Virus record (IMG/VR): IMGVR_UViG_3300041402_000209
Coordinates: 1-23,345 of that record
Reading direction: 5' to 3' (one strand)
DNA from: a virus
DNA length: 23,345 nucleotides
The position numbers and the translations under genes were made by a program. Below the pieces are notes generated by a model. The model saw only the letters and a list, made by a program, of their open reading frames with translations, ran no database searches and was not told the origin of the DNA. Below are positions 7,140 to 22,349 of this stretch, piece by piece. Each line of letters opens with the position of its first letter. The first letter of the stretch is position 1.

Positions 7140-7408
7140 CGCTTACTCCGTGCCGCTTCCACGTCCATCCACGTCGTGGGGAAATCGTCTTGCATCATGT
7201 CCACCTTGCAGGCCCACTCCCCAATCGGGATCGAGTGGTACCAGACCTCGAAGGTGAGAATCTCGCGATCGATCCGATCAGCAACCCGGCGAGTGCCGCG
7301 GGCCGTTAGCTTGAAACAGATTGGCTCATCGGAAATACCCTGGAACAGGGGTCCCGCTTCAATCACGTCACCCACGCTCAGTTCGAGTAGATCCTTGCCC
7401 GGGAGCAT
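7136..7408 (-). CDS. Small hypothetical protein, ASCH-like in outline
   Basis: This is a 90-residue protein starting MLPGKDLLELSVGD. The ATG at 7408 shares its A with the TGA of the upstream gene. An open frame continues further upstream, but that part is Arg/Gly/Ser-rich and only mirrors the neighbouring gene, so it is not included. The sequence FKLTARGTRRVADRIDREILTFEVW followed by HSIPIGEWACKV suggests a small beta-barrel. The pattern of a short domain with a GD turn followed by strands loosely recalls ASCH/PUA-like RNA-binding domains, but the match is too weak for a call. It stands between an unknown protein and the two genes leading into DNA polymerase and is translationally coupled on both sides. 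Confidence 0.7.
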   Translation of the reverse strand: MLPGKDLLELSVGDVIEAGPLFQGISDEPICFKLTARGTRRVADRIDREILTFEVWYHSIPIGEWACKVDMMQDDFPTTWMDVEAARSKR

Positions 7409-8076
7409 CAGGAACCCTTCTCGGTGAACAAACTGATGTCGGGAAGAGCCGTGGCCCAACCGTCTACCGACAAACTGAGCAGCGTGGCTCCGATGGTCTT
7501 GGCTTGCAGGGTTTCGGACTTCGCTTCCACGTGGAACGAACCGTACTTTTCCGTCACGTTGCTGAAGCCCACACCCTTCAGGTGGCTGCGAATCTCTTCG
7601 TCCTCCAGACCCGTACCCTCGACGCGAATAGAAACAGTTCCGGCGCGGATGCGGCACGCGAGCTTGAGACCCTCGCAAATGCCAACCACGAAATACCGGG
7701 AAGAGCTTCCGCTCCCCCGCACGGGCTCATACAGCTTGGTTGCTGCGCTGAGCTTGACGGGAGTCACAGTCTGTAGCTCCTCGATCGGGAACACTCCCGC
7801 CTCGGTGCCCTTCAGTTTCAGCTTCACCATTTTGGCCTCCTTGCCGTGGGATTTCGTGTAGGCAGCCAGGGCATCTTTAACCTGCTGCTTGAACATAGTT
7901 GCCAGGAGAGAATCATAGTTCCCTGCGCACAGAGCCTCCGTCAAGCGATCACTGACCTCTGCAAGAACCGTCATTCCATCGGGGGCAACAACAACGTATC
8001 CACCCTCTTCCACCCGGATGACAACCTTAGCCGCGAGATGTGGTCCCAACAGATGTTTGAGTTCCGCGATTGCCAT
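7408..8076 (-). CDS. Hypothetical protein with an internal in-frame start
   Basis: This 222-residue protein is not recognised. It starts MAIAELKHLLGPHLAAKV behind AGGAGG with a 5-base spacer, and the ribosome site lies in a short hairpin loop. Residue 83 is a second ATG (at 7830) preceded by its own hairpin-type site, AAGGAGG, with the same flanking bases as those before neighbouring genes. Two products are therefore likely: the full protein and a 140-residue C-terminal version starting MVKLKLKGTEAG. The first 82 residues are one mixed alpha/beta unit. The rest contains repeated beta-type segments (RYFVVGICEGLKLACRIRAG; VSIRVEG). Alternatively, two ancestral genes were joined when a stop codon was lost. 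A promoter-like sequence with an inverted repeat lies just upstream. Confidence 0.78.
   Translation of the reverse strand: MAIAELKHLLGPHLAAKVVIRVEEGGYVVVAPDGMTVLAEVSDRLTEALCAGNYDSLLATMFKQQVKDALAAYTKSHGKEAKMVKLKLKGTEAGVFPIEELQTVTPVKLSAATKLYEPVRGSGSSSRYFVVGICEGLKLACRIRAGTVSIRVEGTGLEDEEIRSHLKGVGFSNVTEKYGSFHVEAKSETLQAKTIGATLLSLSVDGWATALPDISLFTEKGS
7834..7845 (-). promoter_or_regulatory. Internal ribosome site in hairpin loop (start at 7830)
   Basis: On the minus strand GGC-AAGGAG-GCC can form a 3-bp stem with the hexaloop AAGGAG, three bases before the in-frame ATG at 7830. The loop fits ANGGAN, the shape bound by CsrA/RsmE proteins. As DNA it also encodes the residues GKEA inside the longer protein. 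The same hairpin type stands before several other genes of the cassette. Confidence 0.5.
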
Positions 8077-8078
8077 CC

Positions 8079-8091
8079 TGGCCTCCTGCCA
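8079..8091 (-). promoter_or_regulatory. Hairpin ribosome site of the 222-residue protein gene
   Basis: UGGC-AGGAG-GCCA on the minus strand forms a 4-bp stem with the ribosome site in the loop, just before the ATG at 8076. Its outer stem pair (U-A) differs from that of the neighbouring hairpins (C-G, G-C) but still pairs. Confidence 0.55.
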
Positions 8092-8127
8092 TGTGGTAAC
8101 TCTACCACAGTCTCAATCTCGAATCAA
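8092..8127 (-). promoter_or_regulatory. Promoter with operator-like inverted repeat
   Basis: On the minus strand TTGATT (8127-8122) and TAGAGT (8104-8099) are separated by 17 bases, like a sigma70-type promoter. The -10 box is embedded in an 18-base inverted repeat, TGTGGTA-N4-TACCACA (8092-8109), a probable operator. The -35 box overlaps the stop codon of the upstream phosphatase gene. The same arrangement occurs upstream of three other units. Confidence 0.6.
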
Positions 8128-9029
8128 TAGCTCTCCGGGTCCAAGGTATCCCCCCACACATTCGCGCTCGTTGGCGTGGGCTTGACGACGTGCGGTTTCT
8201 CTTCCGCCTTGGGAGTGCCGTACTTGTTCCGATACTTCTCCACCGGAGAACGCCACGTGATGTCCCCCTCCGGCCAATCCTTGTCGGTGCCCCCACCGAT
8301 GCCGAGGCCACCCCTGTGCTTGGCAGGTTCCGCATCTACTTCACACCCGAAGTTCTCATGCAGGAACTTCACCTGCTCTATGCTCTCGGTTGCTCGGTCA
8401 CAATAGTGTTCGCGGGTCCAGGCAATCGGGTTCTCTTCCCCCAGTCTTGCCATGATGGCGGCGAGGAACATTCCTGTCCGACCGTGGCCACCGATGCAGC
8501 CCGCGTGAACCCGTGTACCCGAAGCCAACTGCTCCACCGTCCAATCCACCAGCTCGATATAAGCCTTCGTGTGTTTCTTGTCGGGAGCGTGGAAGTCCGT
8601 CACCCGGAACTCGATGTCGTGCCCCGAGGTCCACGGCCACTGCCGGTTCGTCTTGAGCATCCCGCTCTGGAATCCGATGTAGATGTCACAGTCGTCAATG
8701 ATCGGGCTACTGCATGACCCCCCGTAGAACACACCCCCACCAATCTTCAGTTCAGGGTGACTGTCCAAGCACCGGGTGAACTTCTGCTTCTCGAAGTTCT
8801 TCGATTTCGTGTTCTTGGGCTTGTCCCCCTTCCCCAGTGCAGGGATGGGAGCGGGTAGCTCGTCATCCAATGAAAACGGAGGGGGTTGGTTGTTGCTCAG
8901 GTATCCAGGAGCGCGTGTGCACACGGGCTTCTTGTGCTCGTTCACTTCCTTCAGCCCACAGTACACGCATTTCCGGGTTCCGACTTTGGACCCTCCCGGG
9001 AACAGGTGAATGAAATTCTTTCGAGCCAT
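8124..9029 (-). CDS. C(X)5R-type protein phosphatase with N-terminal zinc-like segment
   Basis: This 301-residue protein carries the cysteine-phosphatase P-loop VHAGCIGGHGRTG (nucleophile Cys178, Arg184) after TDFHAP, whose Asp145 is placed to be the general acid of the WPD-type loop. This is the protein-tyrosine / dual-specificity phosphatase layout, hydrolysing phosphoester bonds through a phosphocysteine. The N-terminus has CVYCGLKE and a further Cys at 37, a possible metal site, followed by a Pro/Lys-rich linker. The C-terminal ~60 residues are Gly/Pro-rich and probably disordered. The gene has its own hairpin-type ribosome site. The second phosphatase two genes upstream is clearly a paralogue, sharing the loop and the EF...Y..HA/CD-type segments. 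Targets are unknown and could be host or phage phosphoproteins. Confidence 0.85.
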   Translation of the reverse strand: MARKNFIHLFPGGSKVGTRKCVYCGLKEVNEHKKPVCTRAPGYLSNNQPPPFSLDDELPAPIPALGKGDKPKNTKSKNFEKQKFTRCLDSHPELKIGGGVFYGGSCSSPIIDDCDIYIGFQSGMLKTNRQWPWTSGHDIEFRVTDFHAPDKKHTKAYIELVDWTVEQLASGTRVHAGCIGGHGRTGMFLAAIMARLGEENPIAWTREHYCDRATESIEQVKFLHENFGCEVDAEPAKHRGGLGIGGGTDKDWPEGDITWRSPVEKYRNKYGTPKAEEKPHVVKPTPTSANVWGDTLDPESY

Positions 9030-9031
9030 CT

Positions 9032-9045
9032 CGGCCTCCTTGCCG
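9032..9045 (-). promoter_or_regulatory. Hairpin ribosome site of phosphatase gene
   Basis: CGGC-AAGGAG-GCCG on the minus strand gives a 4-bp stem and an ANGGAN hexaloop holding the ribosome site, just before the ATG at 9029. Confidence 0.55.
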
Positions 9046-9051
9046 TAACCC

Positions 9052-10107
9052 TTACGGGCGTTTGACCTTCTTCAGTTTCAGCTTCGAGTTAATCTCGAAC
9101 CACTGCTTCGCCGCATCCCGCAGGGCCTTGGACTCTGCCTTCTGCGCTTTCGCCGCGTACTCCGAAGACTCGGCTCCGTACACGGTGAGCTGATGCTGTT
9201 TCTGCGTGGCGTAATAACCTTTTCCCATAGCTTCGACGGCGAACCAATCAACCGGCTTGGTGAAGTCAGATCCCACGGCTTTGACACACATTGCGTGGAG
9301 TGATTTGATCTGTGCGGTGATTGCTTTCTTCCCCGACTTGGCTTCATGGATGAGCTGCGGAACCTGACCCGCCGCTTGCACGTCCAACACCATCTTGAGA
9401 ACCCCTTGATCCTGATTCTCGAACATCATCCCTTTGTTGAAGATCGGGGCGCAGTTGTGCTCCAAGCTGAACACGCGATCCAACATCTGCTCCGGGGAGC
9501 GTTCCCCTACCACGAACAGTCGCAACGTGTCAGCGATCTCGGCCCACATCGCTCCACCGAATTGAGAACCCCAACTGCCATGATTGAACGAATACACGAG
9601 GGCCTCGCAGAACCGCTTCACCGGAACATTCGGGGCGTTGGTGAGAAACTTCTTCCCCGCGGTATGGCTACTCGACGGCAGATCCCGCAGCAGCAGCGCA
9701 ATCTCGGAACCGAACATGCTTTCGAGCTTCGCATACCAACTGGAACCGCCTTGGATGTGCCGCGCCTCGCGCGTGCAGATCATTATCAGGTAGTAGAACA
9801 TCCGAATCGCTAGGTCGTTGCACTCCGCGTGATACCGCTCCACCACTTCGAGCACGTGCGGGGGGAGGATCTGCGCGGGTAGATACTTCTGCCGGATGTC
9901 GGACATCGCATGTTGGAGCAGATAGAACCGCAGGGCCTCAACCTCGGGGACCGCTTGTACGGAGCAGAACGTATTCGGTTCCGCGTCATAGTGCGGGGTG
10001 ATCTTCTCAGCCAGCTTGGGCACCAGAACGCCACCCATATCTCGGGGGACGCACAGAGGCCGTGCCAGTTGGAAAGCCAGGGTTGCTTGGTGGGACGTGA
10101 TGCTCAT
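9052..10107 (-). CDS. Hypothetical phage protein, 351 residues
   Basis: I do not recognise this protein. The true start is MSITSHQATLAFQ at 10107, behind AAGGAGG in a hairpin; the open frame reaches further upstream only through the promoter region. It is predicted mostly helical and soluble, without a signal peptide or membrane segment. A central stretch (NHGSWGSQFGGAMW, then FSLEHNCAPIFNKGMMF, about residues 173-245) is rich in Gly, Asn, His and Phe and looks like a conserved core or active site. The C-terminus is Lys-rich (KLKLKKVKRP) and may bind nucleic acid. It has its own promoter, operator-like repeat and palindrome upstream, so it seems to be an independently controlled unit lying between the two phosphatase genes. 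Confidence 0.8.
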   Translation of the reverse strand: MSITSHQATLAFQLARPLCVPRDMGGVLVPKLAEKITPHYDAEPNTFCSVQAVPEVEALRFYLLQHAMSDIRQKYLPAQILPPHVLEVVERYHAECNDLAIRMFYYLIMICTREARHIQGGSSWYAKLESMFGSEIALLLRDLPSSSHTAGKKFLTNAPNVPVKRFCEALVYSFNHGSWGSQFGGAMWAEIADTLRLFVVGERSPEQMLDRVFSLEHNCAPIFNKGMMFENQDQGVLKMVLDVQAAGQVPQLIHEAKSGKKAITAQIKSLHAMCVKAVGSDFTKPVDWFAVEAMGKGYYATQKQHQLTVYGAESSEYAAKAQKAESKALRDAAKQWFEINSKLKLKKVKRP

Positions 10108-10108
10108 C

Positions 10109-10124
10109 TCGGCCTCCTTGCCGA
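10109..10124 (-). promoter_or_regulatory. Hairpin ribosome site of the 351-residue protein gene
   Basis: UCGGC-AAGGAG-GCCGA forms a 5-bp stem and an ANGGAN hexaloop directly before the ATG at 10107. It is the longest fully paired stem of the hexaloop set. Confidence 0.6.
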
Positions 10125-10127
10125 TGT

Positions 10128-10139
10128 GCACGCGCGTGC
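10128..10139. repeat. GCACGCGCGTGC palindrome, intergenic copy
   Basis: This perfect 12-base palindrome lies in a 20-base run of strictly alternating purine and pyrimidine (10124-10143), between the promoter and the ribosome site of the 351-residue protein gene. It is one of four copies in the window. Confidence 0.75.
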
Positions 10140-10145
10140 GCGCCA

Positions 10146-10180
10146 TGTGGTAACAGTACCACACCTCCCAGGGGTGGCAA
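10146..10180 (-). promoter_or_regulatory. Promoter with operator-like inverted repeat
   Basis: On the minus strand TTGCCA (10180-10175) and TACTGT (10158-10153) are 16 bases apart, and the -10 box lies inside TGTGGTA-N4-TACCACA (10146-10163), a perfect 7-base-arm inverted repeat. The palindrome copy at 10128 follows immediately downstream. Confidence 0.6.
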
Positions 10181-10183
10181 GGA

Positions 10184-10687
10184 TTATCTTTTCCCGAACT
10201 TCAACCTCAGTGCAATTCGTATCCGGGAGAAGGTGACGCCGAATCCCTCAACGAACTTCTCCTGCCCAACTGTCTCAACCGCGTGTTCGTTGTAGGTGGC
10301 GCGAACGAATTCAATCGGTTGCGGGTACCCACACATCTTTGCCATCACCGCCAGGAACGTCCCTGTGCGCCCCTGTCCCATGAAGCAGCCCACGTAGACC
10401 TGCTCCCTGCGCAGTACGCGAACCACTGCGTCCTCCGCAACCTTGCGATAGATGCGCAGTGTGGACTTCGTAGGAGTTGAGAAATCCCTGATCCCGAGTT
10501 CCACGTGAGCCACGTCTTTGATCTCGTCGGCTAGGTTAATCCCGAACGCATCCGGGTACTCTTTACACTTGTCCTCGTAGGGACCTCCCAGCACGAAACT
10601 ATTCCTGCCGAACGCATCCAGAACCATCGCTCGATGTCTGGGTCGGGCCGCGGCCTTGGCCTGTTGGTTGATCTGTCCGTTGTTCAT
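10184..10687 (-). CDS. C(X)5R-type protein phosphatase, second paralogue
   Basis: This 167-residue protein has the P-loop VYVGCFMGQGRTGTFLA (Cys101, Arg107) and the preceding IRDFSTP (Asp68 as likely general acid). It is the short, single-domain relative of the phosphatase encoded downstream and lacks that protein's N-terminal Cys segment and C-terminal tail. The core of PTP/DSP enzymes is present, so activity is plausible; the substrate is unknown. The ATG at 10687 lies one base after the TAA of the Cys-rich gene, with a G-rich ribosome site four bases upstream. An in-frame GTG/ATG further upstream lies in the neighbour's coding region and is not preferred. Its coding end contains a 15-base sequence that also occurs in the promoter of the dikinase-like gene. 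Confidence 0.85.
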   Translation of the reverse strand: MNNGQINQQAKAAARPRHRAMVLDAFGRNSFVLGGPYEDKCKEYPDAFGINLADEIKDVAHVELGIRDFSTPTKSTLRIYRKVAEDAVVRVLRREQVYVGCFMGQGRTGTFLAVMAKMCGYPQPIEFVRATYNEHAVETVGQEKFVEGFGVTFSRIRIALRLKFGKR

Positions 10688-10688
10688 C

Positions 10689-11096
10689 TTACCCCCTGTC
10701 CAGCGCGTCAGAGCAGACCTCATTGCCTGCCTTGCGCGATGCAGGGCAGCGACGCTCTACACGCACTTGCCCGTCCTGGCATTTCTCACACCCGCGCCCT
10801 TCGCACGGATCGTGATCTTCATAAAATGTCATCTTCAGTGTACCACGGCAAATCGTGCATCGTTGTGCCCACGCGGCCACCTTGAATCCTCGTTTCACGC
10901 TCACCGGGATGACGCCGAACTCCATCACCAGCTCGTTCTCAATACGCAAGGCCCAACCCTCGAACCTGCGGTTCCACTTCGGGTGAGTGAATGGGGCCGA
11001 TTGACGGGCCATTGCCACGGCCTGTCTGCGATCAACCCCATGTTCTTCCACCTGCTGGTAGGCGAGCTGACTCCACGTGTACTTTCGGAACGCCAT
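10689..11096 (-). CDS. Small Cys-rich zinc-binding-like protein
   Basis: This 135-residue protein has a Cys cluster at residues 80-117: CTIC (80, 83), CEGRGCEKC (98, 103, 106) and Cys117. The CxGxGCxxC part recalls the zinc fingers of DnaJ-type proteins, and a zinc ribbon is likely. The N-terminal 75 residues are helical and basic-aromatic (KYTWSQLAYQQVEEHG). The ATG shares its A with the TGA of the CsrA-like gene, so the two are probably translated together, and its own stop is one base from the phosphatase start. Function is unknown. Because it is coupled to the CsrA-like protein, a nucleic-acid or RNA-related role is possible, but that is inferred from neighbourhood only. Confidence 0.78.
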   Translation of the reverse strand: MAFRKYTWSQLAYQQVEEHGVDRRQAVAMARQSAPFTHPKWNRRFEGWALRIENELVMEFGVIPVSVKRGFKVAAWAQRCTICRGTLKMTFYEDHDPCEGRGCEKCQDGQVRVERRCPASRKAGNEVCSDALDRG

Positions 11097-11371
11097 CAGC
11101 CTTGAGCCCTGCGGTACGCTTGCCCGCGTAGAATGATAATGTCGCGCGGTGCATCAATCACAATCCGCACGACCCCGTTGAGCCCGCGATCCCCCGAACT
11201 GATGAATACGTCCGGGGCCACTTCAGCCATTCGATCTTGAACGATTTCATAATGGGTCCCTTCAGAAGTCTCCAGAACGAAATGCTTGTTGGAGTAAACC
11301 TTGCGGACCATGACTCGTTCCTGCCCGAGGAAGAAATCTTCCCCCTGTCTCAGCGAGAGTATCAACGCCAT
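11096..11371 (-). CDS. CsrA-like RNA-binding regulator with insertion
   Basis: This 91-residue protein aligns with both halves of CsrA/RsmE. The start ALILSLRQGEDFFLG matches the LILTRRVGE...IG pattern, and the end VVRIVIDAPRDIIILRGQAYRR matches VRIGVNAP...V.RE.IY.R, including the Arg before the last helix that contacts GGA in known CsrA structures. Between them are ~37 extra residues (about 28-64) that ordinary ~60-residue CsrA proteins do not have, so it is an extended form. CsrA dimers bind ANGGAN loops, often over ribosome sites, and block or change translation. Its own ribosome site is in such a loop, suggesting autoregulation. It is followed, with overlap, by the Cys-rich gene and preceded by the dikinase-like gene. 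Confidence 0.82.
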   Translation of the reverse strand: MALILSLRQGEDFFLGQERVMVRKVYSNKHFVLETSEGTHYEIVQDRMAEVAPDVFISSGDRGLNGVVRIVIDAPRDIIILRGQAYRRAQG

Positions 11372-11376
11372 ATCTT

Positions 11377-11390
11377 GGGCCTCCTTGCCC
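11377..11390 (-). promoter_or_regulatory. Hairpin ribosome site of the CsrA-like gene
   Basis: GGGC-AAGGAG-GCCC on the minus strand is a 4-bp stem with an ANGGAN hexaloop, 5 bases before the ATG. Compared with CGGC/GCCG at other genes, both sides of one pair changed together. Confidence 0.6.
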
Positions 11391-11398
11391 GTTGGAGA

Positions 11399-13531
11399 TT
11401 AGCTGCCGAAGGTCTCGGCCACCACTTGCTCCGTACTCATACTCACCGGCATCGGGGTTACCTCCTTCCCCGCGGCTTTGAAGGTGTCGATCAGCTCTGC
11501 GTAAACCGCAGGGCCTCCAACCACATTCTCGATGAAGCTTTTAGGAACCTCAACCGGCCCCGTGGAGTGCAGCAAGTCCGCCAGGGTTTCAACCTCGCGT
11601 CCCACTTTGTACCCCGCAGCTTCCAGTCGAACAGCGTGCTCTTTCAGTGCCCCTTCCAATGAAACCACAGCACCCTTGAACCCGTGGGCTTCCAGAAGAT
11701 CGATCACTGCAACTACTTCCGCGTCATCCCCCTTGTCGGGCTCATCCCCGAAACACTCCCACAGGGACACATCTTCTTCTCTTCGGAAACTCAGTGTGCC
11801 CCGCACATCCAGAACGACCTTGCTGCGCTCATCCTCTTTCATGTTAGCCAGCGCGTCGAGAGAGTCTGCTTTCGCTCCCTCGTCGGACAACCACTCGGTG
11901 ACCATGACCCTCTGCTCGGGTCGTTCAACCCGTGCGCTCTGGTAGATGGCCCCAGTCTTTTCGTAGCCCCACTTCACCAAGTCGGCCACGTAAGGATCAT
12001 CCACGCCGGAGACTGTGGGAACCTCAGTACCGATCCACACGCGCCCGGTCGAACCATCTATCGTTACGATGGTCCCTTCCTTGATCTCACTGCCGATCCA
12101 TTCCCCCACTTTTCCAAGACCCACAACACACGGGGTCTTGAATGAGAGCGAATTGACCGCAGCGTGGCAGGTAGCTCCACCGGTTGAGGTCAGCACCCCT
12201 GCACTCGCGTTCATTCCGGGTAGGTCGTCCGCCTCGGTATCGAGGGTGACCAAGATCCCCGGAACGGGGGAGGCCAGAGCTTGCTCGTTGTTGAACACTG
12301 CGGGACCCGACGCGAACCCGGGGCTTGCGTTGATGCCCTTACCATTCGGTTCCACGGTGAACGCGGGATCAACGATGTCCCGTTGCATCCACGCATAATC
12401 GTCGGCACTGACTTTGCTCAGTGCTTGCTCCTTCGTCCAACTACCGGTCTCGACTTGCTCCGACGCGATGCGGAACGCGGCTACCGGGGAACGCTTCCCT
12501 GTGCGAGTTTGAAGGATGTAGGTCTCTCCATTCTGGATCGTGAACTCCACGTCCTGCATGTCCCCATAATGGGCCTCCAGCACGGAAGCGATAGAAATCA
12601 GCTCAGCGAAGTTCTCGGTGAACCCCTTCTTCTGCATCTCGGCCAGCTCCATCGGAGTGACGATGCCCGCTACCACATCCTCCCCCTGTGCGTTCTGGAG
12701 AAAGTCACCGTGGATTTCGTTAGCGCCCGTGGCGGGGTTCCGGGTGAACAGAACGCCGGTCCCACTGCCCTTGCCAGCGTTACCAAAGACCATCTGCTGG
12801 ACGTTGACCGCGGTGCCCATACTGTGGTCGATATTTTCAATGTTGCGGTATGCGATGGCCCGCGGATTGTTCCAGGAGCACAACACCGCCTCGATGGCTT
12901 CAATCAACTGATCCTGCACATCATCCGGGAACGGGTTACCCACATGCTGCGCGTAGACCGTTTCGTACACGAGGCACAGATCTTCAAGCTCCTTTGCCGT
13001 CATCCCATGCGGGGGATGGAGCGTGGCCGTCTTGAATCGGTCTGCCGGGATACCCTTGACGATGGTCCCGAACTCAACGATGAAACGTCGTCTGCAATCG
13101 TATGCCGTGCGGGAACCCAGCTCCTTCTTCCAGAACGCCATGTTCTCGGAAGTCAGACCCACGTTCGAGATCGTATCCATCATCCCCGGCATGGAAACCG
13201 GAGCGCCACTCCTTACGGAAACGAGCGGGGCATGTCCCAGCTTCTTGGACATCGCCGCATACGCTTTGAGGACACGGAAGCCCAAGTATCGGACGGTGAT
13301 CGTGTCTCGGTAGTTGTACCGGGTGCTCACATCCGTGTCGATTGTGAACCCCATCGGAACAGGAAGTCCCAGGTTGCACATCTCCGCGAGATGCGCGCCC
13401 TTGCCACCCAGCAGGGCTACGTCTTTGGCCGACCCATCCGCTTCACCCTTCTCGAAGTAATGAATGGGCGTCCAATCCGTCTTGCCCCACTTGAACGGTG
13501 AATTCGTATACTTTTGATTCTCGGTTGACAT
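11399..13531 (-). CDS. Pyruvate phosphate dikinase-like protein lacking the PEP/pyruvate barrel
   Basis: This protein has 710 residues. Its first ~500 match pyruvate phosphate dikinase: LLGGKGAHLAEM (40-51), VSVRSGAPVSMPGMMDT (104-120), GTGVLFTRNPATGAN (257-271), DVEFTIQNGETYILQTRTGKR (327-347, split by a short run of other residues in relatives), and the swivelling domain with GMNASAGVLTSTGGATCHAAV (439-459), where His456 is the phosphorylated histidine. The usual ~340-residue C-terminal barrel that binds PEP/pyruvate is absent. Instead ~210 residues of unrecognised sequence follow. The ATP half-reaction could therefore be intact while the acceptor is different or missing. Domain replacement with a new acceptor is known in the related rifampin phosphotransferases. 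ATG at 13531 follows AAGGAG by 8 bases; a GTG three codons earlier is less likely. Its own promoter lies upstream and the CsrA-like gene downstream. Confidence 0.9.
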   Translation of the reverse strand: MSTENQKYTNSPFKWGKTDWTPIHYFEKGEADGSAKDVALLGGKGAHLAEMCNLGLPVPMGFTIDTDVSTRYNYRDTITVRYLGFRVLKAYAAMSKKLGHAPLVSVRSGAPVSMPGMMDTISNVGLTSENMAFWKKELGSRTAYDCRRRFIVEFGTIVKGIPADRFKTATLHPPHGMTAKELEDLCLVYETVYAQHVGNPFPDDVQDQLIEAIEAVLCSWNNPRAIAYRNIENIDHSMGTAVNVQQMVFGNAGKGSGTGVLFTRNPATGANEIHGDFLQNAQGEDVVAGIVTPMELAEMQKKGFTENFAELISIASVLEAHYGDMQDVEFTIQNGETYILQTRTGKRSPVAAFRIASEQVETGSWTKEQALSKVSADDYAWMQRDIVDPAFTVEPNGKGINASPGFASGPAVFNNEQALASPVPGILVTLDTEADDLPGMNASAGVLTSTGGATCHAAVNSLSFKTPCVVGLGKVGEWIGSEIKEGTIVTIDGSTGRVWIGTEVPTVSGVDDPYVADLVKWGYEKTGAIYQSARVERPEQRVMVTEWLSDEGAKADSLDALANMKEDERSKVVLDVRGTLSFRREEDVSLWECFGDEPDKGDDAEVVAVIDLLEAHGFKGAVVSLEGALKEHAVRLEAAGYKVGREVETLADLLHSTGPVEVPKSFIENVVGGPAVYAELIDTFKAAGKEVTPMPVSMSTEQVVAETFGS

Positions 13532-13536
13532 GACCT

Positions 13537-13548
13537 GCACTCCTTTGC
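13537..13548 (-). promoter_or_regulatory. Hairpin ribosome site of the dikinase-like gene
   Basis: GCA-AAGGAG-UGC on the minus strand gives a 3-bp stem with an ANGGAN hexaloop 5-8 bases before the ATG. The stem sequence differs completely from the GGC-type set, yet it pairs. Confidence 0.5.
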
Positions 13549-13586
13549 TTCCCGTATTCCGGGGGTCGATGCTCTGTGTAGTTTAC

Positions 13587-13622
13587 TGTGGTTTTTATAC
13601 CACTGCAAGGATTATCTTTCAA
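13587..13622 (-). promoter_or_regulatory. Strong promoter with operator-like repeat before dikinase-like gene
   Basis: TTGAAA (13622-13617) and TATAAA (13599-13594) are separated by exactly 17 bases on the minus strand, the best sigma70-like match in the window. The -10 box lies in an inverted repeat of the same design as at the other promoters (13587-13604, arms TGTGGTT/TACCACT). The leader between it and the ATG is about 50-60 bases. Confidence 0.7.
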
Positions 13623-13639
13623 TCCTCCGATTTTTCTTT

Positions 13640-13661
13640 GGGGAAGGGTGATCCCTACCCC
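13640..13661 (-). other. Stem-loop after the small membrane protein gene
   Basis: GGGGTAGGG-ATCA-CCCTTCCCC on the minus strand pairs with one mismatch and starts just after the TGA of the 43-residue gene. It is followed by A-rich sequence rather than a T run, so it is not a classical intrinsic terminator. It may be a transcript-end or processing hairpin separating that gene from the strong promoter downstream. Confidence 0.35.
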
Positions 13662-13663
13662 AC

Positions 13664-13795
13664 TCACCAAAAGATCCAACACAGAATAATCATCACCACC
13701 GCCGCCTCGTAGATAAGAACACCGCCCAACATTCGAGTGCTGTCCCATGCCTCCTCGGCAGGAGTCTTGCCATCCGGGTATCGATACTCTTCCAC
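13664..13795 (-). CDS. Small single-pass membrane protein, 43 residues
   Basis: The frame starting at GTG 13795 reads MEEYRYPDGKTPAEEAWDST and then a hydrophobic segment, LGGVLIYEAAVVMIILCWIFW, split here for clarity as LGGVLIYEAA and VVMIILCWIFW, before TGA. A G-rich ribosome site (GGAGGGGGG) lies 6-10 bases upstream. The polar N-terminus followed by a ~20-residue hydrophobic helix ending in aromatic residues is a typical tiny phage membrane protein with the charged part probably on the inside. No function can be assigned; membrane interference, exclusion and lysis-related roles are all possible. It fills what would otherwise be a ~280-base gap. A competing longer frame here lacks a well-spaced ribosome site and runs through the promoter. 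Confidence 0.55.
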   Translation of the reverse strand: MEEYRYPDGKTPAEEAWDSTRMLGGVLIYEAAVVMIILCWIFW

Positions 13796-13824
13796 AATGC
13801 ACCCCCCTCCAGGAGTCTTGCAGG

Positions 13825-14088
13825 TTATTCCGTCATGCCTGAATCTGGATCGACTTTGATTTCATTCGGATCAATTGCTCGGAGTGTTAGGCCATCCCAC
13901 TCAAATGAAAAGATGCGGTGCTCTTCCTCAGATTCGGCTGCTTCAGTGCTGTTGAGCAGGGCCGCGAGGGTTTCCGCGGTATCTTCCAGAGTAGCTTTCA
14001 CGTCAGAGGGGATGTCATCACACAACCCTAACGTGGCCTCGACTCGTCCGTGTAAAGAATTGATCCGCTCAACCAATTGCCTCTTCAT
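13825..14088 (-). CDS. Small acidic hypothetical protein
   Basis: This 87-residue protein is strongly acidic, with a helical first half (MKRQLVERINSLHGRVEATL, then DVKATLEDTAETLAALLNST) and an acidic run EAAESEEEH before a short beta-like end (FSFEWDGLTLRAIDPNEIKV). I do not recognise it. It has no membrane segment. The ATG follows AGGAG by 8 bases, and that site can be drawn in a weak loop (GAGU-UAGGAG-ACUU). The start overlaps the upstream gene by 20 bases. Small acidic phage proteins are often anti-host inhibitors or DNA mimics, but nothing specific supports that here. Confidence 0.65.
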   Translation of the reverse strand: MKRQLVERINSLHGRVEATLGLCDDIPSDVKATLEDTAETLAALLNSTEAAESEEEHRIFSFEWDGLTLRAIDPNEIKVDPDSGMTE

Positions 14089-14260
14089 TGGAAAGTCTCC
14101 TAACTCGGATCTTCCTCTTGGGGGGGAGAACCAGACACTCCCCGGAGAAATGCACAGGCTGCACCTTACCCCGGATCATCGCGAACGTGTATCGCCCGGT
14201 TCCTCTCCCCACAATCTTCGTCACCTCGTCACAACGGAAACATCGCCACGAGCTAGTCAT
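14069..14260 (-). CDS. Small basic protein with CxxC
   Basis: This 63-residue basic protein starts MTSSWRCFRCDEVTKIVGRG. The CFRC pair and a later Cys (near residue 42) could form part of a metal site, with a beta-rich middle (RYTFAMIRGKVQPVHF) and a basic tail (PPKRKIRVRRL). It resembles small zinc-ribbon proteins common in phages, but no family is recognised. The ATG overlaps the TGA of the upstream 76-residue gene (ATGA), with only a distant ribosome site, so translation probably depends on coupling. It ends 20 bases into the next gene. Confidence 0.6.
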   Translation of the reverse strand: MTSSWRCFRCDEVTKIVGRGTGRYTFAMIRGKVQPVHFSGECLVLPPKRKIRVRRLSNEEAIG

Positions 14261-14487
14261 GGGAGAAATTCCACCTCAATCCCGTGGGACCCCACGACGT
14301 TCGCAACACCTTCTTTCTCGGACAACATGGTTCTGAGCTTAGCCACCAGCCCATCCATGCCTCCTGCTTTATGAACGCCGATGAGGTCTTCCCTCAGTTC
14401 TTCTCCGACCACCACGTTAGCCTCCACCTTGTAGTCGGTGATCGTGTGCACACGAACCCTGAACCGCTGGAGACTTGCTGCTCCCAC
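14257..14487 (-). CDS. Small hypothetical protein, 76 residues
   Basis: This protein starts with GTG immediately after the TAA of the SAP-domain gene, with GAGG eight bases upstream. It reads as one small alpha/beta domain: strands RFRVRVHTITDYKVEANVVVG, broken by turns, then a helix GLVAKLRTMLSEKEG and a final strand HGIEVEFLP. I do not recognise a family. The arrangement suggests a small ferredoxin-like fold. The coding region contains the palindrome CGTGTGCACACG. It is coupled to genes on both sides and has no own promoter signal. Confidence 0.65.
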   Translation of the reverse strand: MGAASLQRFRVRVHTITDYKVEANVVVGEELREDLIGVHKAGGMDGLVAKLRTMLSEKEGVANVVGSHGIEVEFLP

Positions 14488-15489
14488 TTACTCAACCTCA
14501 ATGGCATCCGGGAACGCTGTGGTGAACGCCGCGATGATGGAATCGCACAGGGCTTGCTGATGCTTCTTGGGCGTGTGCTTCTTGGCGTGTGCGATTGCCT
14601 CGGCTGCGGTCATCCGCTTGGGCTTCGGCTTTGCCCCTGAGGCCAGGTAGTCCAGACACACGTACTCCAGCGCAGGTCCATCGAACTCCGTGTTTCCCTC
14701 TTCCTTCGCTTTCGCGAGGGCGAGCTGAATGGTTTCCTTCTGGTCCTCGTGTACCTGAAAGGACAGGCGCGTGATAGGCGTTGATCCGTCCTTGGCGTTG
14801 ATCCCCTTCCCACCTTCCTTCGTCTTCCAATCCCGGACGAAGTTGGTCACCTCGAACAGGTTCTTCAGAGGAAGCACCTTGGCCATGATCTCAGCCACGT
14901 TGTCCTCATCGAGGATGGCGTGGATGAGTCGCAGCTTGCTCCATCCGAGCTTGTTTGCTGCGTTCCAAGGGATGTCCAGCTCCACGAGCTTTTCGTAGAT
15001 GCCGATCGCGTACTGGGCTTTCCGCTTCTTCATGCCCAGTTCGGTCTCAACAAACTCGAAGAAGTCGTCAGCCTCCCCCTTCCAATCCTTGGCCTTCATC
15101 TTTCCGAGGATGCCGCCCGTGCGGAACAGAGCGAAGTTCCCCTCGTCCTGCACTGCGTTGAGCTTGTTGATGGCCTCCTTCTGGGTCTTGATTTTTTGGA
15201 TCTGCGCAACGACCTCATGGATCGTATTGCCCTTCTCAATACCCGGGGTGACCTTCTTCTCCGTCTTACCTGTCTTCGTTTTCGGAACGTGTTGACCGAA
15301 CAGACCTGCGACTTTGTTCCGCAGTTCTCCAAGCTTCAACTTGGCGGCGTCCTCAATCGGAACGTCGTGCTCGTCAACGAAGGCCAGTAGATCTGCCTTC
15401 GTCATCTTTGCGAAATTCGGTGTTTCCGCGGCTTCTGCTTTCGCTTCTTCCTCACCGGGGAATTTCACCTGTAGCTTTGCTGATGCCAT
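14488..15489 (-). CDS. SAP-domain-like putative DNA-binding protein
   Basis: This protein has 333 residues. Residues ~28-64 (MTKADLLAFVDEHDVPI, then KLKLGELRNKVAGLF) match a SAP/Rho-N type helix-turn-helix DNA- or RNA-binding module. A Lys/Thr-rich linker follows. Residues ~115-230 form a helical domain (DDFFEFVETELGMKKRKAQY, then GWSKLRLIHAILDEDNVAEI) of a type seen in phage and plasmid proteins of uncertain function. The C-terminus is Lys/Ala/His-rich. It could be a replication-associated or nucleoid-type protein; the DNA-binding role rests on the SAP match. It is the first gene after a promoter with the operator-like repeat and the palindrome, and it has the best-paired hairpin ribosome site. 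It leads the accessory cassette. Confidence 0.8.
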   Translation of the reverse strand: MASAKLQVKFPGEEEAKAEAAETPNFAKMTKADLLAFVDEHDVPIEDAAKLKLGELRNKVAGLFGQHVPKTKTGKTEKKVTPGIEKGNTIHEVVAQIQKIKTQKEAINKLNAVQDEGNFALFRTGGILGKMKAKDWKGEADDFFEFVETELGMKKRKAQYAIGIYEKLVELDIPWNAANKLGWSKLRLIHAILDEDNVAEIMAKVLPLKNLFEVTNFVRDWKTKEGGKGINAKDGSTPITRLSFQVHEDQKETIQLALAKAKEEGNTEFDGPALEYVCLDYLASGAKPKPKRMTAAEAIAHAKKHTPKKHQQALCDSIIAAFTTAFPDAIEVE

Positions 15490-15494
15490 AGACT

Positions 15495-15509
15495 CATGCC
15501 TCCTGCATG
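15495..15509 (-). promoter_or_regulatory. Hairpin ribosome site of the SAP-domain gene
   Basis: CAUGC-AGGAG-GCAUG is a perfect 5-bp stem with the ribosome site as a 5-base loop, 5 bases before the ATG at 15489. The stem sequence is unrelated to the GGC-type hairpins, which argues that pairing itself is conserved. Confidence 0.6.
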
Positions 15510-15513
15510 TTGT

Positions 15514-15525
15514 GCACGCGCGTGC
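15514..15525. repeat. GCACGCGCGTGC palindrome, intergenic copy
   Basis: This is a perfect 12-base palindrome within a 20-base alternating purine-pyrimidine run (15511-15530), placed between promoter and ribosome site exactly as in the copy at 10128. Confidence 0.75.
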
Positions 15526-15535
15526 GCGTGGCTCT

Positions 15536-15571
15536 TGTGGTTACTCTACCCCAACACTGCGGGGATGGCAA
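15536..15571 (-). promoter_or_regulatory. Promoter with operator-like inverted repeat
   Basis: On the minus strand TTGCCA (15571-15566), 17 bases, TAGAGT (15548-15543). The -10 box lies in an inverted repeat (15536-15553) with arms differing from TGTGGTA/TACCACA at one base each. It overlaps the stop codon of the RuvC-like gene and drives the SAP-domain gene. Confidence 0.6.
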
Positions 15572-22133: not shown

Positions 22134-22349
22134 TTACCCCCCGCCGCGCTCCACCAACTTCGGAGCCTCAACAGAAATATCAGCCTCCACATTTCTGTCT
22201 TCAACTTCCGGGCGCACGCGCGTGCGCGACTGTTGCTCCTCGAAGATCGTTACCACGAACTGATCCATCGGACGGTTTTCCCCAACCCAACCTTTGACGA
22301 TTTCCAACAGAGTTTTGTCCGACAGAATTGCCAACGGTATCTCGCGCAT
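22134..22349 (-). CDS. Small hypothetical protein, 71 residues
   Basis: Three start codons follow in a row (GTG 22355, ATG 22352, ATG 22349). The GGGGAG ribosome site is best spaced for the last, giving MREIPLAILSDKTLLEIVKG. The protein has one helix (KTLLEIVKGW), a strand (MDQFVVTIFEE) and an acidic, Val-rich tail. I do not recognise it. The stop of the primase gene overlaps the second ATG, so it is coupled to primase and precedes the SSB promoter. Part of its middle (SRTRVRPEVE) is encoded by one of the 12-base palindromes. Confidence 0.65.
   Translation of the reverse strand: MREIPLAILSDKTLLEIVKGWVGENRPMDQFVVTIFEEQQSRTRVRPEVEDRNVEADISVEAPKLVERGGG
22214..22225. repeat. GCACGCGCGTGC palindrome, coding copy
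   Basis: This copy lies inside the 71-residue gene and is extended to a perfect 16-base palindrome at 22212-22227, within a 17-base alternating purine-pyrimidine run. Confidence 0.75.

Follow-up and report, generated by a model that had tools for sequence, protein, structure and literature searches.

A gene cassette with hairpins over its ribosome sites

The virus record IMGVR_UViG_3300041402_000209 is 23,345 bases long, and this whole stretch is referred to here as the window. Its genes lie on the minus strand. A cassette at positions 7408-15489 encodes a pyruvate phosphate dikinase (PPDK)-like kinase, a CsrA-like protein, a small protein, two DSP/PTP-type phosphatases that flank a gene named g10, a gene named g12 and a phrog_17202 protein, and the genes for DNA polymerase and portal come after it. 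Short hairpins that resemble the targets of CsrA/RsmE proteins hold the ribosome sites of several of these genes in their loops, which suggests that the phage probably regulates its own operons through the CsrA-like protein that it encodes. The genes of the cassette are the following:

14488..15489, minus strand: phrog_17202 protein (7.8e-34), function unassigned, putative regulon member
11399..13531, minus strand: PPDK-like protein (Pfam PPDK_N 5e-46 and PEP-utilizers; phrog_18609), putative regulon member
11096..11371, minus strand: CsrA-like protein of 91 amino acids (Pfam, PDB profile search, AF2, Foldseek)
10689..11096, minus strand: small protein, stop/start coupled behind the csrA-like gene, without hairpin
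10184..10690, minus strand: DSP/PTP-type phosphatase 1 (PTP1; Pfam Tc-R-P/PTP-SAK), coupled to the preceding gene, without hairpin in the window
9052..10107, minus strand: g10 (phrog_20946, 2.4e-60), function unassigned, putative regulon member
8124..9029, minus strand: DSP/PTP-type phosphatase 2 (PTP2; Pfam Tc-R-P), putative regulon member
7408..8076, minus strand: g12 (phrog_25950), function unassigned, putative regulon member

Seven hairpins are found in front of start codons in this region:

15495..15509, minus strand: CATGC-AGGAG-GCATG (pentaloop), over the ribosome site of the gene at 14488-15489 (sequence, scans)
13537..13548, minus strand: GCA-AAGGAG-TGC, over the ribosome site of the PPDK-like gene (sequence; orthologous PPDK leaders have other paired stems)
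11377..11390, minus strand: GGGC-AAGGAG-GCCC, over the ribosome site of the csrA-like gene, possible autoregulation (sequence)
10109..10124, minus strand: TCGGC-AAGGAG-GCCGA, over the ribosome site of g10 (sequence)
9032..9045, minus strand: CGGC-AAGGAG-GCCG, over the ribosome site of the second phosphatase-like gene (sequence)
8079..8091, minus strand: TGGC-AGGAG-GCCA (pentaloop), over the ribosome site of g12 (sequence)
7834..7845, minus strand: GGC-AAGGAG-GCC, before the internal in-frame ATG 7830 of g12 (sequence)

The initial annotation had reported hairpins before seven starts, and direct reading of the leaders located all of them on the minus strand with the stems as written. The loop had been given as 5-6 bases long with AAGGAG as the hexaloop; this hexaloop is found at five of the seven sites, and those before 15489 and 8076 have the pentaloop AGGAG. 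The hairpin had been said to be missing from genes that start by stop/start overlap and from replication and head genes; this was indeed seen at 10690, 11096, 14260, 14487 and 16984, and at the polymerase and portal genes of the window.

The number of hairpins was evaluated with an arm-swap test, in which leaders are split at the GGA of the ribosome site, the 5' halves are shuffled among leaders, and Watson-Crick stems directly flanking a loop of 5 or 6 nucleotides are counted over 2000 permutations. Among the called leaders of the window, 7 stems of at least 3 pairs were found versus 1.5 expected, and 5 stems of at least 4 pairs versus 0.38 expected, neither count being reached in any permutation. 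In a scan of the window that does not depend on gene calls, the coding strand yielded 11 stems of at least 3 base pairs with an A(N)GGA loop and a start codon behind it, and the opposite strand no start-linked stem; 500 dinucleotide shuffles averaged 1.7 such stems, with 6 as the maximum. The folding energy of the individual hairpins in the window is not unusual, and the leaders at 11371 and 15489 have a minimum-energy fold different from the hairpin. Because the leaders have no folding advantage over shuffled sequences, folding energy was dropped as evidence; the case for the hairpins lies in their number, position and covariation.

Hairpins and their covariation in related phages

A search of viral contigs with the single CsrA-like sequence found nothing, and a small alignment then found 11 loci; megablast of the cassette against phages gave no match, and no relative of the protein was seen in cellular genomes searched with patterns of the same alignment. 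The gene order PPDK, CsrA-like protein, small protein, phosphatase, g10, phosphatase, g12, polymerase, portal is recurrent, being shared by Rhodobacter phage RcZahn, Rhizobium phages RHph_Y1_11 and RHph_TM16 (Y1_11 and TM16 in what follows) and most of eleven IMG/VR loci, among which L007 and L011 are copies of one sequence. The CsrA-like protein is gp7 in RcZahn and EVC30_139 in Y1_11.

Together, the ten relatives that share this csrA-like gene and its cassette contain 93 stems of at least 4 base pairs versus about 8 expected, and the count over 11 phages is 98 with the window included. For stems of at least 3 base pairs, the counts are 25 versus 4.0 expected in RcZahn, 21 versus 4.8 in Y1_11, 23 versus 4.3 in L006, 15 versus 3.3 in L008, 22 versus 4.0 in L009, 17 versus 4.6 in L013 and 23 versus 3.5 in L014, with 8 versus 2.0 and 7 versus 1.2 in the smaller contigs L010 and L011; none of these counts was reached in 2000 permutations. 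The TM16 part taken alone has 2 stems versus 0.7 expected, which is not significant. Starts in unannotated contigs were called by a simple Shine-Dalgarno rule, by which some will be wrong; with annotated starts only, RcZahn has 23 stems versus 3.5 expected, and annotated genes of Y1_11 with a gap of at least 15 nucleotides have 20 versus 3.7. When RcZahn was scanned independently of gene calls, 18 sites of at least 4 base pairs were found on the coding strand, all 18 followed by a start codon at Shine-Dalgarno spacing, and 3 on the opposite strand, none of them linked to a start. The loop GGA stands at this spacing from the start in all listed sites, overlapping the ribosome site as in a CsrA-type target. 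The group carries about 10-25 hairpins per genome, and their placement is at the first genes of operons: in RcZahn and Y1_11 together, 39 of 116 starts with a gap of at least 15 nucleotides carry a hairpin, versus 5 of 179 closely packed starts.

Covariation was evaluated on leaders picked by orthology, not by hairpin, and permuted within each gene. A stem is present in 8 of 13 leaders of PTP1 (1.2 expected), 9 of 11 usable leaders of g10 (2.9 expected; 6 distinct stems), 8 of 11 usable leaders of PTP2 (2.1 expected), 7 of 13 leaders of PPDK (2.5 expected) and 6 of 9 usable leaders of g12 (2.0 expected), with p <= 0.0002 by arm-swap permutation for each of the five cassette genes. Pooled, these genes have stems in 38 of 57 leaders versus 6.6 expected, with 20 distinct stems, all of them paired. 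Control leaders (DNA polymerase, portal, terminase, g5 and a small protein) have 2 stems in 44, versus 1.1 expected; a leader set labelled ParB is disregarded, as non-orthologous genes were mixed in for the window. Conservation of the stems with paired changes in relatives, which the initial annotation had proposed as its check, is thus observed both at orthologous genes and genome-wide.

No hairpin enrichment was found in lambda and two csrA-free Rhizobium phages (the first 40 kilobases for the latter two), nor in four phages with an ordinary csrA (F116, PhiXhv-12, Pondi and 431E45.1; about 49 kilobases each), from which it follows that owning a CsrA is not enough. A general phage habit as the source of the hairpins is rejected on the basis of these seven phages.

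Outlying members carry fixed repeats. Stenotrophomonas phage DLP_5 (records L041 and L042) has a CsrA-like protein (hidden Markov model E 5.8e-11). The sequence CAATGGAGTG is present in exact form 15 times in DLP_5 and 13 times in the L016 record, versus 0.09 expected in each, and in both of them all copies precede start codons and lie on one strand. This start-associated repeat may be a fixed CsrA-like site. Vibrio phage VH2_2019 (L063, L064) has 9 exact copies of AGTCAGGAGACG, with a GTC/GAC dyad around AGGA, before start codons; V-YDF132 (L005) also carries repeated AGTCAGGAGACG before starts, and the Vibrio phages with this repeat encode a longer CsrA-domain protein (about 160 amino acids) at the same cassette position.

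The CsrA-like protein and the loop signature

A CsrA-like gene had been claimed inside the cassette behind one of the hairpins, and profile, PDB and fold matches of the product of 11096-11371 bear this out: by its sequence, the 91-residue protein is a remote, divergent, insert-bearing relative of CsrA/Rsm and not an ordinary CsrA. Pfam CsrA (PF02599) matches residues 65-90, the C-terminal half only, with 28.4 bits against a cut-off of 27; a six-frame DNA search of the window with the CsrA profile gave 22.1 bits, below the cut-off, and the proteins of several relatives score below the Pfam cut-off or not at all. A profile of 11 relatives compared with PDB sequences gave nine matches at E <= 1, all of them CsrA/Rsm, the best with E 0.017. 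In the two top PDB alignments, residues 3-22 and 67-90 map colinearly onto CsrA 2-22 and 28-51, by which an insert of about 44 amino acids is placed between strands 2 and 3. The resulting layout probably comprises CsrA strands 1-2 (about 3-22), the insert (about 23-66), and strands 3-5 with the helix (about 67-90). Arg82 aligns with CsrA Arg44, the RNA-contact residue of strand 5, and is kept in at least 90% of 14 sequences. The AF2 monomer model has a pLDDT of 94.3 and a pTM of 0.84, and Foldseek places the RsmF/RsmN structures 4k59, 4krw and 4kji among its best matches (probability 0.90-0.97, E 0.18-0.53). Alignment by hhalign with approximate sequences of three ordinary CsrA proteins gave a probability of 59% over the C-terminal 26 columns; a higher value of 91.9% came from an alignment that included the Vibrio phage proteins.

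RsmN/RsmF of Pseudomonas aeruginosa has a 16-residue insert between strands 2 and 3 and conserves Arg62, the equivalent of Arg44 (PMC3791407). The phage protein has its insert at the same place, retains the Arg44 equivalent and finds in these proteins its best CsrA-family Foldseek matches, but the insert of RsmN/RsmF is helical and of about 16 residues, whereas that of the phage protein, at about 44 residues, is modelled as strands with the C-terminal helix kept. This divergent insert may define a new CsrA subfamily.

Stemless leaders from the same phages served as the comparison for the loops. Among 77 hexaloop stems of at least 4 base pairs, the first loop position is A in 97% versus 36% in stemless leaders, while the second position varies (A 74, C 18, G 4 and T 4%, with A at 47% in stemless leaders). 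The closing 5' base is C in 79% of the hexaloop stems versus 22% in stemless leaders, a C-G pair closes 61 of 77 hexaloops and 15 of 21 pentaloops, and ACGGAG loops occur in Y1_11 and L014. The high-affinity RsmE site is ANGGAX set directly on a stem closed by C-G, and the pentaloop A-GGA-X, which lacks the N, is also bound (PMC4005645). The sites described here conform to this definition of a CsrA-type target in loop, direct stem and C-G closure. The pattern fits CsrA/RsmE better than a plain Shine-Dalgarno sequence, in which position 2, and not position 1, would be the one fixed by pairing. Hexaloops are the rule in the relatives of L008, but 10 of its own 12 stems carry a pentaloop, in most cases C-AGGAG-G, which is a possible shift in site preference.

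A candidate self-directed Csr circuit and its alternatives

The hairpins, their covariation, the loop signature, the operon-first position and the remote CsrA protein, all computed here, make it probable that the phage encodes a CsrA-type post-transcriptional regulon directed at itself, with the binding of protein to RNA as a prediction. The phage would express the insert-bearing protein of 11096-11371, which would act, probably as a dimer, on short hairpins at the head of many phage operons by binding their ANGGAG hexaloop or AGGAG pentaloop, where the Shine-Dalgarno sequence of the operon's first gene is exposed. Bound protein would cover the ribosome site and block initiation, by which the operons would be held down or timed together, presumably in the course of infection, and the coupled downstream genes without hairpin would follow the first gene of their operon. 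As the GGA in the loop is identical with the ribosome site, repression is likelier than activation.

CsrA is absent in all 199 sampled genomes of the order containing Rhizobium and present in 42 of 192 genomes across the class, the sampled order being that of GTDB and the membership of Rhizobium being taken from NCBI. Since the host order lacks CsrA, no CsrA-type candidate other than the phage protein is known in the hosts of the Rhizobium phages. It is moderately likely that a phage lineage whose hosts lack CsrA, at least in the case of the Rhizobium members, has assembled a full and self-contained Csr-type circuit from a new insert-bearing CsrA subfamily and 10-25 cognate operon-leader hairpins per genome, as a translational switch acting genome-wide on its own genes, with the outliers DLP_5 and L016 using fixed CAATGGAGTG repeats as the same kind of site.

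Several observations weigh against a self-directed regulon. L012 and L015 (small contigs with the gene), VH2 and DLP_5 have no variable-stem hairpins, and the relatives were collected via the csrA-like gene, so that co-occurrence of gene and hairpins was sampled among carriers of the gene. The similarity to CsrA is weak at the sequence level (the PDB E of 0.017 and the hhalign 59% given above), the best Foldseek E-values are not significant, and the equivalent of CsrA Arg6 is not conserved in the CsrA-like proteins. No CsrB-like sponge was found (FliW was not searched for): the window has no Rfam match, and a scan for sponge RNA in 14 genomes or genome fragments, several of the records being fragments, gave at most 2 sites in any 200 nucleotides. 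The csrA-like gene itself has a leader hairpin in 2 of 14 sequences, window included. The initial annotation had proposed a phage CsrA regulon with autoregulation, and its core is upheld by the covarying stems, the loop statistics and the remote CsrA protein, but autoregulation, which rests on the leader of the window itself, is not supported as a conserved feature.

It is unlikely that the hairpins are sites of a different RNA-binding protein, of phage or host, beside which the CsrA-like gene lies by coincidence. In favour of such a protein, L012 and L015 have the gene and no hairpins, and the cassette does hold other proteins without assigned function, but the CsrA/RsmE site of the literature is matched in three independent features of the loop and closing pair, CsrA is lacking in the host order of the Rhizobium phages, and sites and gene occur together in 11 of 11 phages with sites, all of them found through the gene. 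A main action of the CsrA-like protein on host mRNAs, with the phage hairpins as side targets, is compatible with self-regulation and has parallels in the plasmid-borne RsmQ, which rewires host translation (PMC9928087), and in the host manipulation proposed for phage CsrA (PMC11879866). The tens of covarying sites on the phage genomes, against the lack of enrichment in phages with an ordinary csrA, form a self-directed pattern that makes a predominantly host-directed role quite improbable.

A function without any protein, in which exposure of the Shine-Dalgarno sequence in the open loop of a short hairpin would raise or time translation, or the hairpin would protect the 5' end of the mRNA, agrees with the short stems (3-5 base pairs) of ordinary stability and with the position at operon-first genes, where 5' structure matters for mRNA stability. 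It is nonetheless very improbable: it predicts neither the 97% A at loop position 1 beside a variable position 2, nor the C-G closing pair, nor the ACGGAG loops of Y1_11 and L014, given that AAGGAG pairs better with 16S rRNA, and the hairpins are missing in the csrA-free Rhizobium phages and lambda. Several leaders of the window share GGCAAGGAGGCC, as would be the case if the hairpins were copies of one repeat with accidental stems; the probability of such an origin is negligible, as 20 distinct stems at orthologous leaders are all paired (with the p-values given above for each cassette gene) and the opposite strand and control phages are empty or at chance level. Chance or repeat copying is thus rejected by the arm-swap permutation across orthologues.

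The proposed self-directed regulon shares with the Csr/Rsm systems (E. coli CsrA and Pseudomonas RsmA/RsmE, of the RsmE-hcnA type) the ANGGAX or A-GGA-X loop on a short, C-G closed stem over the ribosome site, as well as a protein with the CsrA C-terminal core and the Arg44 equivalent. Unlike them, it is phage-borne, its putative targets are the operons of the phage itself, its protein has the insert of about 44 residues, and no sponge RNA was found. A csrA gene has been reported in 30 phages (PMC7366521), and knock-down of gp28 in PTXU04 gives small plaques in a 2025 paper, which states that the role of csrA in the phage life cycle had not previously been tested (PMC11879866). The phages studied here resemble these in being tailed phages with a csrA-type gene, but no phage-side regulon is described for the latter in the accessible parts of the two reports (PMC7366521, PMC11879866), and none of the present group is among the matches listed by tblastn with E. 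coli CsrA. RsmQ is likewise a CsrA-type regulator on a mobile element, which binds ANGGA loops and acts on the host proteome (PMC9928087), whereas the sites here are on the phage genome. The Start-Associated Sequences (SAS) of cluster K mycobacteriophages are well conserved 13-base-pair elements, GGGATAGGAGCCC, with function and binder not assigned in the accessible text of their description (PMC3203893). Like the present sites, GGGATAGGAGCCC has a dyad (GGG/CCC) around AGGA just before the starts of a subset of genes, but here the stems vary and covary and the loop is ANGGAG, so that the hairpins do not belong with the SAS, with which no CsrA is reported in that text (PMC3203893).

The open-access literature searched yielded no account of phage genomes with covarying CsrA-type hairpins, an earlier one in subscription papers being possible, and the RcZahn genome paper (PMC8601537) contains neither "CsrA" nor "stem-loop". 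The putative targets can be read from the sequence as the phage's own operons, covarying with intact pairing across diverged phages, and if the self-directed regulon is real, translation across a whole phage genome would be timed by a single RNA-binding protein of the phage, which would be a rarity. Immediate tests are feasible, since RcZahn, a phage of Rhodobacter capsulatus, and RHph_Y1_11, a phage of Rhizobium phaseoli, exist as isolates with annotated genomes.

The initial annotation had listed 7830 among the seven starts. The hairpin is present there, but the ATG is internal and in frame, at codon 83 of the open reading frame from 8076, and the site is possibly an internal start or else a coding coincidence. 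The g12 of Y1_11 (L003, 15760) also has an internal in-frame start with a hairpin, and the g12 of L012 (12971-13414) consists of the C-terminal domain only; the internal starts and this short gene hint at a second, shorter g12 product.

The palindromic repeat GCACGCGCGTGCGCG occurs three times in the window (10128-10142, 15514-15528 and 22214-22228), twice directly before a hairpin. In the minimum-energy fold at 15489, the hairpin's 5' arm is paired with sequence adjoining the repeat, so that the two structures may compete. A DNA dyad, TGTGGTA-nnn-TACCACA, lies just upstream of three hairpin leaders (8088-8109, 10142-10163 and, in degenerate form, 15532-15553), and relatives have other palindromes at this position, CTAGTATACTAG in L013 and TGCAATTAATTGCA-like ones in L006, L007 and L010. 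These upstream dyads and palindromes are possibly promoter or operator elements. PHROG 17568 labels 8124-9029 and 10184-10690 as "thymidylate synthase", whereas Pfam finds DSP-type phosphatases; the PHROG label, which is also present in some phage records, is probably wrong.

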